The notes under the pieces: generated by a model | Databases searched by the model: none | The model's input: only the letters and a program-made list of their open reading frames with translations | Told to the model about the DNA's origin: nothing | Assembly (NCBI RefSeq): GCF_019343105.1 | Contig: NZ_CP073764.1 | Span: 3,212,001 to 3,276,000 of the forward strand | Length of the DNA: 64,000 nucleotides | Direction of reading: 5' to 3' | Origin: Methylovirgula sp. HY1 | GTDB lineage: Bacteria > Pseudomonadota > Alphaproteobacteria > Rhizobiales > Beijerinckiaceae | Shown here: positions 49,220 through 53,061 of the stretch, piece after piece | Layout: every line of letters begins with the position of its first letter | How positions within the stretch are numbered: position 1 is the first letter of the stretch | Made by a program: the position numbers and the translations under genes

Positions 49220-49267
49220 GCGCCAAATTCGATCGATCCGCAACCGCAAAAACTGGTGGAGATGAAG

Positions 49268-49750
49268 ATGATCCGCGAAGAGCTCACTGAAAAGATTCTC
49301 GACATCAAGCGCGAGAAGGGATGGACCTGGAAACATATCACCACTGAGATCGGCGGCATGTCGGAAGTGCTTGTCGTAGGTGCCTTGCTCGGCCAGATGA
49401 AACTGGTCAAGCCCTTGGCGGCGAAGGCGGCGGAGCTCTTCGGCCTTTCCGAAGTGGAAGCGCGGATGCTGAACGAGGTGCCCTATCGCGGCATGCCGAT
49501 GCCGCCGACCGATCCATTGCTCTATCGCTTCTATGAGCTGGTGATGGTCAATGGGCCGGCCTGGAAGGCTTTGATCGAGGAGGAGTTCGGCGACGGCATC
49601 ATGTCGGCGATCGATTTCGACATGCAAATGGAGCGTCTGCCCAACGTCAAGGGCGATCGTGTGAAGCTCACGATGAGCGGAAAATTCCTCCCCTACAAAT
49701 ATTATGGGAACGAGCAGGGGATTCCCGAGGTTGGCTTCAAGGAAGATTGA
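49268..49750 (+). CDS. cynS: Cyanate hydratase (cyanase)
   Basis: A 160-residue enzyme that converts cyanate plus bicarbonate to ammonia and two CO2 (via carbamate). The helical N-terminal domain (REELTEKILDIKREKGWTW) is followed by the catalytic C-terminus: LLYRFYEL supplies the Arg and Glu (about residues 87 and 90) and DGIMSAIDF the Ser (about 113), matching the known catalytic triad of E. coli CynS. ATG 49268 is preferred because GGAG lies 6 nt upstream; ATG 49262 and GTG 49256 are in frame. Last gene of the TetR-controlled cluster. Confidence 0.95.
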   Translation: MIREELTEKILDIKREKGWTWKHITTEIGGMSEVLVVGALLGQMKLVKPLAAKAAELFGLSEVEARMLNEVPYRGMPMPPTDPLLYRFYELVMVNGPAWKALIEEEFGDGIMSAIDFDMQMERLPNVKGDRVKLTMSGKFLPYKYYGNEQGIPEVGFKED

Positions 49751-50117
49751 GCTTGGGTCGCCCTCCCTGCGGACCTTATGACGTGGCAAGCCGTGTCGAG
49801 CGCTCCGGCGCTCCACGCGGCCGTGAGCGCGGGTCGAAATTCAGCATGCGCATAGGTTAACCAGCGATTCATCTGGATTAGTCATGCTGCGCGCATAATG
49901 CTTGACAAATCGCCAGCGGGGATACACATCCAACTTGTCGGCGCAGGCTTCGCCTCGTCGGCGATTCACAACCCTCGAAAGATCCATGGGCAGTAGCAGC
50001 TTTGGTGTTTCGACCGTGGCGTCGGCCGCGCAAGAAATACCTCTCGACATTGAAACCATCCGCGGTCGCAAGGATCGTGTGAGAGGCGTCGCGCGAGCCT
50101 GAAGCTCCTGCCTACCC
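49751..50117. other. Intergenic region after cynS
   Basis: A 367-bp stretch without a supported gene. A short ORF at 49902-50102 (plus) has no good start or family features. No canonical terminator hairpin with T-tract follows cynS. The promoter of the Nramp leader transcript probably lies here. Confidence 0.35.
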
Positions 50118-50161
50118 CTCACCTTCCGGCCGCGACTCAGTGGCAAAAAAGGAGGTGAGCG

Positions 50162-50425
50162 ATGAAAATGCTCACGAATATTCATGCGGCCTTTGCGCCG
50201 CCGCGCGGCAGCCGGATGTTGGCGGCTGCCCCCTGTCATGCGACCTCTGCGCGCAGCGTGCCTGTCAAGGCTTCGGTGTCTCGCCCCAGGCTCCAGCGCC
50301 GCTGGGCAAGCGATGCCGCAGGGCATCTCGTGTGTGCCTGGTCCGAAGCTTCGCCGCCTCAGGATCAAAGTACTATCCGGCGCGGCAGAAGCCGCGCCGG
50401 CGCAGCCATTTTCATGGCTGCTTGA
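50162..50425 (+). CDS. Putative small ORF in the Nramp leader
   Basis: An 87-codon ORF starting MKMLTNIHAAFAPPRGSRML, with a perfect GGAGGTGAGC Shine-Dalgarno. The sequence contains two Pro-Pro pairs (APPRG, SPPQD) and RRWASDAAGHLVCAWSEA. There is no signal peptide or membrane helix. Its stop is at the base of the 50402-50421 hairpin, 177 nt before the transporter start. It could be a regulatory leader peptide, a real small protein, or chance; the strong initiation site favours translation. Confidence 0.4.
   Translation: MKMLTNIHAAFAPPRGSRMLAAAPCHATSARSVPVKASVSRPRLQRRWASDAAGHLVCAWSEASPPQDQSTIRRGRSRAGAAIFMAA
50377..50421 (+). promoter_or_regulatory. Tandem GC-rich hairpins in the Nramp leader
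   Basis: Arms CCGGCGCGGC and GCCGCGCCGG (50377-50400, loop AGAA) are followed after one base by GCAGCCAT and ATGGCTGC (50402-50421, loop TTTC). Both are perfect. No T-tract follows, so they are not a standard terminator. They lie in the last codons of the small ORF. Confidence 0.6.
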
Positions 50426-50571
50426 CGGAGTTCATCCATGCAAGACGGCCCGAGTAGGCCTGTCGGCGCCTTTGGGGGGCCGCCGATAGGCCGAATTCGA
50501 AACCTGTTTCCGAGATCATTAAGAAACCAGGCCATGCAGGGCCGAGCGGAATAGAGGACCTCCCTCTCATC

Positions 50572-50601
50572 GCTCGCCTCCTTGCGTGGAGGAGGTGAGC
50601 C
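50572..50601 (+). promoter_or_regulatory. Hairpin sequestering the transporter Shine-Dalgarno
   Basis: GCTCGCCTCC pairs with GGAGGTGAGC, which contains the whole Shine-Dalgarno and sits 1 nt before the ATG at 50602. The pairing is 10 bp with one G-U. In the folded state ribosome access would be low, so opening the hairpin would switch translation on. Confidence 0.6.
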
Positions 50602-52257
50602 ATGACCCAACATCTCAACCCGCCCAACGTGGCGCAAAGCGCTGTCCTCGACGATGCGCATGTCGGCCATATCCATGGTGCGTTCGGCACCATTCTTAAG
50701 GGTGACCAAGGACCCCGTACGAGCTGGAAGCACCGAGTCACGACGCTTCTCGCCATCATCGGACCTGGCCTCATCGTGATGGTCGGTGACAACGACGCCG
50801 GTGCTTTCGCGACCTATGGCCAAGCCGGCCAGAACTACGGCACGGCGCTGCTGTGGACGCTGACGCTTCTGATCCCGGTTCTTTACGTCAATCAAGAAAT
50901 GGTGCTGCGCCTGGGTGCCGTGACCGGCGTCGGCCATGCCCGACTGATCTTCGAGCGGTTCGGCAAATTCTGGGGCGCCTTCAGCGTCATCGATCTGTTT
51001 TTGCTGAACGGCTTGACCATTGTGACCGAATTCATCGGCATCGCCCTGGCGCTCGGCTATCTCGGCATCGACAAGACGACGGGCGTCGTCATCTCCGCGG
51101 CGCTCGTCATGATCGCCGTCAGCACCGGCGATTTCCGACGTTTCGAGCGATTCGCAATGGCTCTCGTCTTCGCCAGCTTGCTGCTCGTGCCGCTCTATTT
51201 CATGGTTCATCCGCCGCTCGCTCAGGTCGCGCGCGATTTCGTCGTTCCGCAATTGCCGAAGGGCGGCAAGCTGAGCGACGTGATGCTGCTCATCATCGGC
51301 ATCGTTGGGACGACTGTGGCGCCCTGGCAGCTTTTCTTTCAGCAAAGCTACGTCATCGACAAGCGCATCACGCCGCGTTTCATTCGCTATGAGCGGCTCG
51401 ATTTGTGGATCGGCATAGCCCTGGTCATCATCGGCGGTGGCGCGATCATGGCCTTCACCGCAGCGACTTTCGCAGGTCATCCCGAGTTCGGCAATTTCAC
51501 CGACGCGGGCGGTATTGCCGCAGGCCTCGGCAAATATGTCGGCAGAACCGCAGGCGTGATGTTCGCTATCGCGCTGATCGATGCCGCGCTGATCGGCGCT
51601 TCCGCGGTGTCCCTCTCCACGGCATATGCGATCGGCGACGTATTTTCGGCGCGTCATTCATTGCACCGCAAAATCACCGACGCGAAGGGCTTCTACGCGG
51701 TCTACTTCGGATTGATCGTGATCGCCGCGGTCATCGTCCTGACTCCCGGTTCACCGCTCGGGCTTTTGACCTTGGCCGTGCAGACTTTGGCCGGGGTTCT
51801 GCTGCCGAGCGCGACGGTGTTCCTGTTGCTGCTCTGTAATGACAAGGCAGTTCTGGGGCCGTGGGCGAATACACGTTGGCTCAACTATTTCACCGGCGCC
51901 ACAATCGCCGTGCTGGTGGTCTTGTCGGTCATCCTCACCGCCTCGGTGCTGTTCCCCGATGCCACCAACGGACAGGTCATTCTCGGCATTCTCGTGGGAG
52001 GCGGTGTCGTTTCCCTGATCCTTGCGCTGGTGATCACGGCTTTGAGCCAAAACGGTTCGATCAAACCGCAAGCCGAGTTGGCGGCGGCGCCGCGGATAGC
52101 GCGCGATCTCTGGCGCATGCCGCCGCTGGACCAATTGCCGCCGGCGGACCTGTCGCTCGCCGCCAAGACCTGGATGGGTGTCCTGCGCCTCTATCTCGTC
52201 GTCGCCGGGGGAATGGTTCTGTACCGGATCGTCATGCTGGCGATCAAGCAAGCGTAA
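50602..52257 (+). CDS. Nramp-related divalent cation transporter (probable Mg2+, NRMT-like)
   Basis: A 551-residue transporter with about eleven helices of the SLC11/Nramp fold. The TM1 metal motif DPGN reads D-A-G-A here (GDNDAGAFATYG), and the TM6 motif MPH reads A-P-W (GTTVAPWQLFF). Canonical Mn2+/Fe2+ transporters need the Asn and Met for soft metals. Loss of both is the pattern reported for Nramp-related magnesium transporters (NRMTs). Adjacent mgtC supports a Mg2+ role. A structured leader precedes the gene. Confidence 0.85.
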   Translation: MTQHLNPPNVAQSAVLDDAHVGHIHGAFGTILKGDQGPRTSWKHRVTTLLAIIGPGLIVMVGDNDAGAFATYGQAGQNYGTALLWTLTLLIPVLYVNQEMVLRLGAVTGVGHARLIFERFGKFWGAFSVIDLFLLNGLTIVTEFIGIALALGYLGIDKTTGVVISAALVMIAVSTGDFRRFERFAMALVFASLLLVPLYFMVHPPLAQVARDFVVPQLPKGGKLSDVMLLIIGIVGTTVAPWQLFFQQSYVIDKRITPRFIRYERLDLWIGIALVIIGGGAIMAFTAATFAGHPEFGNFTDAGGIAAGLGKYVGRTAGVMFAIALIDAALIGASAVSLSTAYAIGDVFSARHSLHRKITDAKGFYAVYFGLIVIAAVIVLTPGSPLGLLTLAVQTLAGVLLPSATVFLLLLCNDKAVLGPWANTRWLNYFTGATIAVLVVLSVILTASVLFPDATNGQVILGILVGGGVVSLILALVITALSQNGSIKPQAELAAAPRIARDLWRMPPLDQLPPADLSLAAKTWMGVLRLYLVVAGGMVLYRIVMLAIKQA

Positions 52258-52344: not shown

Positions 52345-53061
52345 ATGGCTATTTGGACGAATGTTCGCGTCGGCGGCTTGATCGACATTTCCGCCACCCT
52401 GGCTGTCGCGCTCGCGCTCGGGACTTTGATCGGCGCCGAACGGCAATATCGCCAGCGCACGGCCGGATTGCGCACCAATGCGCTTGTCGCGGTCGGCGCC
52501 GCTGGTTTCGTCGGTCTCGGCATGTCGCTCAATGCGAATGTCGGCGCGACACAGGTGCTGGCCTATGTCATTTCCGGCATCGGCTTTCTGGGCGCCGGCG
52601 TCATCATGAAGGAGGGGACCAATGTCCGCGGGCTCAACACGGCTGCGACGCTCTGGTGTTCAGCGGCTGTCGGCGCCTTCTCCGGTGCCGGTTATGGTGC
52701 CGAGGCGGCGCTGCTGACATTGTTCGTGCTTGCCGGCAATACATTTCTGCGGCCGCTTGCCAATCTCATCAATCGCATCCCAATCAACGAGCGCACGACC
52801 GAGGCGACCTATCAGGTACATGTGACGGTCGATACCGAAAACCGCGACCTGATCCGCGATCTCCTCGGCGAAAAGCTGGAAGCCGCCCATTATCCCTTGC
52901 GTGATGTGGAGGTGCTCGATCGCGGCGAAGAAGATGTCGAATTCGTCGCCACGCTTGCCGCCACGAGCATCGACCCGGTCGAGCTCGACGCCGTCACGCA
53001 CGAGTTGGAAAAGGCCGATGGTGTTTCTTATGCGACTTGGACGTCGAGTGCCGTCGGCTGA
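52345..53061 (+). CDS. mgtC: MgtC/SapB family protein
   Basis: A 238-residue membrane protein. The N-terminal domain has about four helices with the MgtC signature GTLIGAERQYRQRTAGLRTNALVAVGAAGF and GVIMKEGTNVRGLNTAATLW. The C-terminal cytoplasmic domain (about 150-235) is ACT-like. MgtC proteins are linked to growth at low Mg2+ and to F-ATP synthase control. Lies 87 bp after the Nramp-related gene on the same strand, so probably co-transcribed. Confidence 0.9.
   Translation: MAIWTNVRVGGLIDISATLAVALALGTLIGAERQYRQRTAGLRTNALVAVGAAGFVGLGMSLNANVGATQVLAYVISGIGFLGAGVIMKEGTNVRGLNTAATLWCSAAVGAFSGAGYGAEAALLTLFVLAGNTFLRPLANLINRIPINERTTEATYQVHVTVDTENRDLIRDLLGEKLEAAHYPLRDVEVLDRGEEDVEFVATLAATSIDPVELDAVTHELEKADGVSYATWTSSAVG

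Follow-up and report, generated by a model that had tools for sequence, protein, structure and literature searches.

The window analysed here, a stretch of 64,000 nucleotides from the 3.7 Mb genome of Methylovirgula sp. HY1 (with Methylocapsa- and Rhodoblastus-like Hyphomicrobiales among its close relatives), contains a region of 850 nt without a full-size gene, which separates cynS from the gene of an NRAMP-type transporter. In this region we found three small ORFs and a set of hairpins, listed below together with the neighbouring genes; uORF1, its anti-anti-SD strand (50079-50083; SD, Shine-Dalgarno sequence) and uORF3 with its hairpin were absent from the first-pass annotation of this DNA.

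49256-49750: cynS (cyanase), the neighbour bounding the leader region on its upstream side
49902-49907, + strand: TTGACA, putative -35 element, recurring in orthologous leaders (alignment of 17 leaders; weak)
49986-50102, + strand: uORF1, 38 codons, MGSSSFGV...RVRGVARA, with a start (ATG GGC AGT) nearly invariant in 33 leaders
50079-50083, + strand: anti-anti-SD GTGAG, within uORF1 (3' part), forming the 5' strand of hairpin P1 (with 50118-50122; conserved pairing)
50118-50127, + strand: anti-SD CTCACCTTCC, common to P1 and P2 (fold and comparison)
50151-50159, + strand: SD of uORF2, forming the 3' strand of hairpin P2 (pairing 50154-50159/50118-50123; compensatory changes)
50162-50425, + strand: uORF2, 87 codons, core [LP]xCxWxxD...GRLxCxW and C-terminal [LFM]AA in the alignment
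50377-50421, + strand: two perfect hairpins at the 3' end of uORF2 (fold), in its poorly conserved 3' part
50438-50554, + strand: uORF3, 38 codons, MQDGPSRPV... (alignment; 57.7 bits with covariance model R1)
50458-50491, + strand: hairpin H3 in uORF3, from the Arg-Pro codons on (50458-50467 with 50482-50491; covariation)
50572-50600, + strand: hairpin P3 over the transporter SD (50572-50583 with 50589-50600; fold; modest support)
50602-52257, + strand: NRMT-type NRAMP (SLC11) transporter (Pfam PF01566; best solved relative EleNRMT, 7qia)
52345-53061, + strand: MgtC-family protein (mgtC), 3' of the transporter gene (Pfam PF02308 and PF21770)

No full sigma-70 promoter was matched in the promoter scan, and the -35 element is therefore weak; the terminator scan found no intrinsic terminator. 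The sequence GGAGGTGAGCNATG, described in the first-pass annotation as duplicated, indeed has exactly two matches in the 64 kb (50151-50164 and 50591-50604), compared with none in 100 shuffles. As described there, the copies lie 440 nt apart (start to start) and precede the 87-codon ORF (50162-50425) and the transporter gene (50602-52257), and each is faced by a complementary strand, i.e. 50118-50127 for the first SD and 50572-50583, pairing with 50589-50600, for the second, where the stem comprises 12 bp (fold -30.9 kcal/mol, z -3.8). The second anti-SD is also able to pair with the first SD, as had been pointed out, but this is only a consequence of the identity of both SDs. Moreover, this identity is not general: the first SD hardly varies among orthologs (GGAG[GA][TC]GAG), but the transporter SD does. 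Two perfect hairpins had been noted between the copies, and both are present in the fold (50377-50386/50391-50400 and 50402-50409/50414-50421). The leader had further not been recognised as a known riboswitch, in keeping with the lack of any Rfam match in the window; searches at the gathering threshold and at E 1 gave nothing relevant in the alphaproteobacterial leaders either.

For comparison, orthologous leaders were drawn from 80 loci, 38 genomes of the same family and plasmids, using a pattern for ATGGGCNG[TC], i.e. the start sequence of uORF1. The resulting 33 distinct alphaproteobacterial leaders share one order of elements, namely uORF1, anti-SD, SD and uORF2, usually with uORF3 next. 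The anti-SD reads CTC[AG]CC or CTCAT in orthologs and lies 10-16 nt behind the uORF1 stop in most leaders (28-34 nt where uORF1 is shorter); uORF3 starts 10-20 nt after the uORF2 stop and ends about 50 nt before the transporter gene. At its expected place uORF3 is missing in four loci (L036, L060, L064 and L086), and uORF1 was not found by the search used in some NRMT leaders of the family. The elements are specific to this gene context. Searching 397 genomes of the order with the combined uORF1 and P1 pattern gave matches only in NRMT leaders (reversed control: 0), the uORF2 profile matched only NRMT leaders in 60 relatives, and among the readable matches of R1, the uORF3 model, in 248 family genomes (E <1e-5) we found only NRMT leaders.

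In orthologs uORF1 encodes MGSSxxG and spans 30-39 codons. Its early codons are nearly constant, with GGC as codon 2 in 33/33, AGT as codon 3 in 32/33 and GGC as codon 7 in 30/33 distinct leaders; the leaders gathered by the start-sequence pattern included none that used different Gly/Ser codons. For uORF2, the conservation called for earlier is found: 30 of the 33 leaders keep the [LP]xCxW..D..GxLxCxW core, although length varies from 43 to 112 codons. It is under purifying selection (pN/pS about 0.5-0.6), and an AlphaFold2 model predicts a confident beta-hairpin at about residues 44-62, i.e. the core, with low confidence for the remainder. A known protein family was looked for and not found: uORF2 has no Pfam family, and no relatives turned up outside NRMT leaders. 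In one locus (L062:2534) uORF2 is frameshifted near its start relative to its relatives, leaving 15 codons. The consensus of uORF3 is M[NKDQ]DGPSRP with Ser coded by AGT, an ATG or TTG start and 34-42 codons in most leaders.

The covariation that had been named as a check of the SD1/anti-SD stem is present as well, in the form of compensatory changes in the orthologous leaders. P2 is kept in 33/33 leaders at two variable pairs, of which one occurs as A-U, G-U or G-C and the adjacent one as C-G or U-A; well-supported branches of a maximum-likelihood transporter tree force no fewer than three independent changes for the G-C state and one for U-A. The same anti-SD (CUCACC) pairs with GTGAG of uORF1 in P1, so that P1 and P2 are mutually exclusive. 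The inner helix of P1 shows two-sided changes in three pairs, and the upstream pairing probability of the anti-SD averages 0.83, compared with 0.50 when the upstream sequence is shuffled (combined p 5e-15, a value that is overstated since the sequences are related). P1 is weak in a Bradyrhizobium subgroup, and four Bradyrhizobium leaders show no P1 effect above shuffles. On average P2 is lower in energy than P1 by 3 kcal/mol, and P1 is made before P2 during transcription; such near-equal energies and this order are what one would expect of an attenuator. In the window P2 is favoured by about 10 kcal/mol, so that P1 could matter here only kinetically. Thus a leader ORF overlaps a strand of two exclusive, conserved structures, one of which covers the downstream ribosome-binding site. 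Translational switching, as proposed in the first-pass annotation, retains its sequence basis, albeit in a changed form in which one anti-SD serves two exclusive hairpins.

The strongest covariation of all is that of H3, with two-sided changes in 9 of its 10 pairs and a score of 0.575, as against 0.241 for shuffled and at most 0.18 for slid controls; RNAalifold found this hairpin unaided. P3 is clear in the window and in a congeneric leader (L006) but modest over all leaders, where the transporter SD is unpaired at 0.32 versus 0.41 for other genes (p 0.03). A second anti-anti-SD acting on P3 was considered and rejected, as its support was slight (p 0.03). At the level of sequence, the comparison establishes the ORFs, P1, P2, H3 and their link to NRMT genes, and the leader is a conserved, attenuator-like one that is richer than first noted.

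Among solved chains, the Mg2+ transporter EleNRMT (7qia) is closest to the transporter (E 8e-51), followed by the next chain at 7.5e-25 and by the manganese-type MntH at 3e-18 or weaker. Its metal-site stretches NDAG and TVAPWQ align with NDAG and TIAPWM of EleNRMT. NRMTs are marked by changed DPGN and Met ligands and by a Trp replacing the helix-6 His (PMC10115441); in our transporter these ligands are likewise changed and the Trp is present, which places it on the NRMT branch. Because of the E-value with EleNRMT, the NDAG and APW stretches and the Trp typical of NRMTs, it is probably a Mg2+ importer. In addition, an M-box Mg2+ riboswitch (RF00380) precedes the NRMT gene in seven orthologous loci (E 1e-24 to 1e-33) from Streptomyces, Streptantibioticus, Leifsonia, Arthrobacter, Pseudarthrobacter and Alicyclobacillus (Actinomycetota, Bacillota), followed in most of the seven by a short ORF, e.g. 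MDCSCSSPGHSRP, MNDGHSPST or MDSGPSH. The RF00380 covariance model had no match in the window or in the proteobacterial leaders scanned. The link to Mg2+ suggested earlier would thus stand by way of the NRMT-type transporter and the M-boxes preceding its orthologs, and the position of mgtC behind the transporter gene fits it too. In six Actinomycetota loci (L183, L185, L186, L188, L189, L192) the NRMT gene adjoins one for a CBS-domain protein, sometimes with MgtC too.

Short ORFs similar to those of the leader also precede NRMT genes in Beta- and Gammaproteobacteria, such as MPDSDSYPLC and MPDPEPCSC in Burkholderiaceae, MDSPSRPY in Ralstonia and MDPSSSRPV in Pseudomonas. Early acidic residues together with Pro are clear in the betaproteobacterial MPDPEP and MPDSDS and in MDDDPS and MKDDPS; most alphaproteobacterial uORF3 peptides have a single Asp, and uORF1 has no acidic residue. 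Burkholderiaceae leaders (L072, L093, L098 and further loci from Burkholderia) also contain, downstream of the short acidic ORF and some 270 nt ahead of NRMT, another conserved ORF that is mostly unannotated (MNFGLLLSQLPHVxESRxHYDAML).

A common feature of these ORFs is the codon used for serine. Selection of the motif ORFs used a peptide pattern that includes a serine and took no account of codons; the early codons of 231 long ORFs from the same loci served as control. AGT encodes the early Ser in 51-64% of the motif ORFs, compared with only 4.1% (9/221) in the control and 3.6% in NRMT genes. Also enriched are CCT (31% versus 7%), CGA (29% versus 8%) and TTA (21% of Leu versus 0.9%). The AGT stands in frame in 99/101 cases, a count that is partly circular as selection had required an in-frame serine; the signature is therefore judged by AGT relative to other Ser codons. 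A general U-ending or AT bias is ruled out as its source, since Asp, Asn and Gly codons stay C-ending in the motif ORFs and control genes have 4% AGT. Slow decoding, drop-off or tRNA modification are candidate causes. We tentatively consider, without putting great weight on it, that M[DN]xxPS(AGU)RP and its variants could form one broad leader-peptide family located ahead of NRMT genes across Alpha-, Beta- and Gammaproteobacteria and also in Streptomyces and Alicyclobacillus. It would sense Mg2+ by codon-specific slow decoding or drop-off at the AGU Ser, on its own in Proteobacteria and behind an M-box in the Gram-positives.

For the leader itself we lean towards a translation-dependent attenuator that governs the NRMT-mgtC operon and is probably Mg2+-responsive, resembling mgtL and mgtQ yet separately built. 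When uORF1 is read to its stop, the ribosome would open P1 and free the anti-SD, P2 would form and uORF2 would be switched off; if uORF1 translation fails early, P1 would hold the anti-SD and leave the uORF2 start open. Ribosomes ending uORF2 10-20 nt before uORF3 might then feed uORF3, whose translation, or abortion at the early Asp-Gly-Pro-Ser codons before H3, would set access to the transporter, as the uORF3 stop lies some 50 nt ahead of the transporter start and immediately 5' of P3. This relay from uORF2, uORF3 and H3 to the transporter we infer from spacing. The likely signal is low Mg2+, which would slow or abort elongation at acidic, Pro and AGU codons near the ORF starts. A mechanism of this kind has been proposed for mgtL and mgtQ, where ribosomes are reported to abort at acidic and proline codons at low Mg2+ (PMC8092293, PMC11282234): in MgtL they drop off at EPDP (PMC11282234), and in MgtQ Asp2 and Glu5 release a covered ribosome-binding site (PMC8092293). 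An acidic motif of the MgtL type does not fit uORF1, because MGSS contains no acidic residue. The first-pass proposal that translation of a small ORF might work the switch would then hold with another ORF: uORF1, whose 3' end supplies the competing strand, is most likely the controlling element, and the 87-codon uORF2 would be the first cistron under its control and not the sensor.

Several other explanations were weighed against this attenuator. What is sensed may be the decoding of AGU Ser (together with CCU Pro and CGA Arg) by particular tRNAs or their modifications instead of an acidic peptide, which would leave the RNA switch unchanged, with Mg2+ still able to exert its effect via a tRNA-modifying enzyme, e.g. 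TrmD. The high share of AGT among early Ser, the accompanying CCT, CGA and TTA next to C-ending Asp, Asn and Gly, and the near-constant AGT of uORF1 codon 3 all fit, as does the proposal that m1G37-dependent Pro codons of mgtL, through slowed decoding, sense Mg2+ (PMC6335274). However, a few members have AGC instead of AGT, the serine in the selection pattern favoured such ORFs (if not the codon), and no AGU-specific sensor was found in the literature searched; we regard this explanation as rather unlikely. We hold much the same opinion of uORF2 as a functional small protein co-produced with the transporter (e.g. a transporter or protease adaptor) at a level set by the leader. Its confidently predicted beta-hairpin core, its pN/pS and its conserved LAA-like C-terminus speak for such a protein, whereas its variable length, the low-confidence remainder and the lack of relatives outside leaders speak against it; the idea is compatible with the attenuator and does not exclude it.

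By comparison, it is very unlikely that a metal-binding riboswitch aptamer drives the change with the ORFs being incidental. The M-boxes before orthologs in other phyla would suit an aptamer, but neither the window nor the alphaproteobacterial leaders match Rfam, the leader alignments show no large conserved junction, and what stays constant in them is confined to ORF starts, SD/anti-SD and short hairpins with freely varying helices. Hardly any credence can be given to a complete lack of regulation, in which GC-rich leaders fold regardless and the repeated SD is a coincidence: although the transporter SD differs from the first SD in most orthologs, the repeat is absent in shuffles, and covariation of P2, P1 and H3 exceeds the shuffled and slid controls.

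Among known systems, the attenuator favoured here shares with the MgtL leader of mgtA (E. coli, Salmonella) a short leader ORF before a Mg2+ transporter whose translation selects an RNA structure, and the early acidic and proline codons of MgtL are matched by the betaproteobacterial MPDPEP and MPDSDS. Unlike MgtL, it precedes a different transporter family, with serial ORFs, an AGU Ser signature and a uORF1 devoid of acidic residues, and the switch appears, as far as can be judged from the letters, to be a translational anti-SD switch rather than one of a Rho site. In mgtQ, between mgtC and mgtB of Salmonella, abortion in a small ORF with Asp and Glu is similarly reported to free a covered ribosome-binding site via alternative stem-loops (PMC8092293); mgtQ, however, is an intergenic ORF of 8 codons, whereas here a uORF1 of 38 codons would control another small ORF and uORF3 precedes the transporter. 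The M-box leader (RF00380) of M. tuberculosis pe20 with its translational platform is likewise a Mg2+ leader with an anti-SD/anti-anti-SD switch on a conserved small ORF, and its uORF1 has rare codons (PMC12810186), but there the aptamer is the sensor, and we found none in proteobacterial leaders, though it is present in orthologs of other phyla. The amino-acid attenuators trpL and hisL also have a codon signature and a leader ORF that extends into one strand of two mutually exclusive hairpins; they precede biosynthesis genes, whereas here there is no such gene and no intrinsic terminator was found. No published description of this leader was found in the literature searched, which covered few subscription papers. 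Mg2+ sensing by leader ORFs has been worked out in detail mostly in enteric bacteria. The leader described here would represent an independently built counterpart in Alphaproteobacteria that combines a visible three-strand switch and three ORFs in series with an NRMT as target and a codon signature that crosses phyla, and it would allow a concrete test of ribosome performance as a general Mg2+ sensor and of the role of a rare serine codon.

The surroundings of the leader vary among relatives. In Bradyrhizobium an ORF for a HisE-like phosphoribosyl-ATP diphosphatase separates the leader from NRMT, and on a Methylobacterium plasmid such an ORF immediately precedes NRMT (L056, L073, L092, L191); in another locus (L130:963 onward) an ORF between uORF3 and NRMT resembles, by eye, a heavy-metal-associated domain protein. 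In L182 (G506:C4) the NRMT frame is interrupted shortly after its start by an apparent insertion element and the leader is intact. An (S/A)EPPSR ORF, again with AGT, replaces uORF1 in Magnetospirillum, Telmatospirillum and Methylobacterium (L048, L049, L061, L068, L118), and in five loci (L043, L046, L059, L080, L107) a further ORF that starts with TTG (MDSCSSRPSKSFSA and similar) and contains several AGT codons lies farther out, about 800 nt upstream of NRMT. Finally, one weaker R1 match in the fetched loci, the only case found before another gene, lies in Bradyrhizobium BTAi1 (L036:4680-4782), where a uORF3-like ORF, MDEHPSRPAV..., precedes an OprB-like porin gene directly downstream of NRMT; this type of leader may therefore also control an outer-membrane partner of NRMT.
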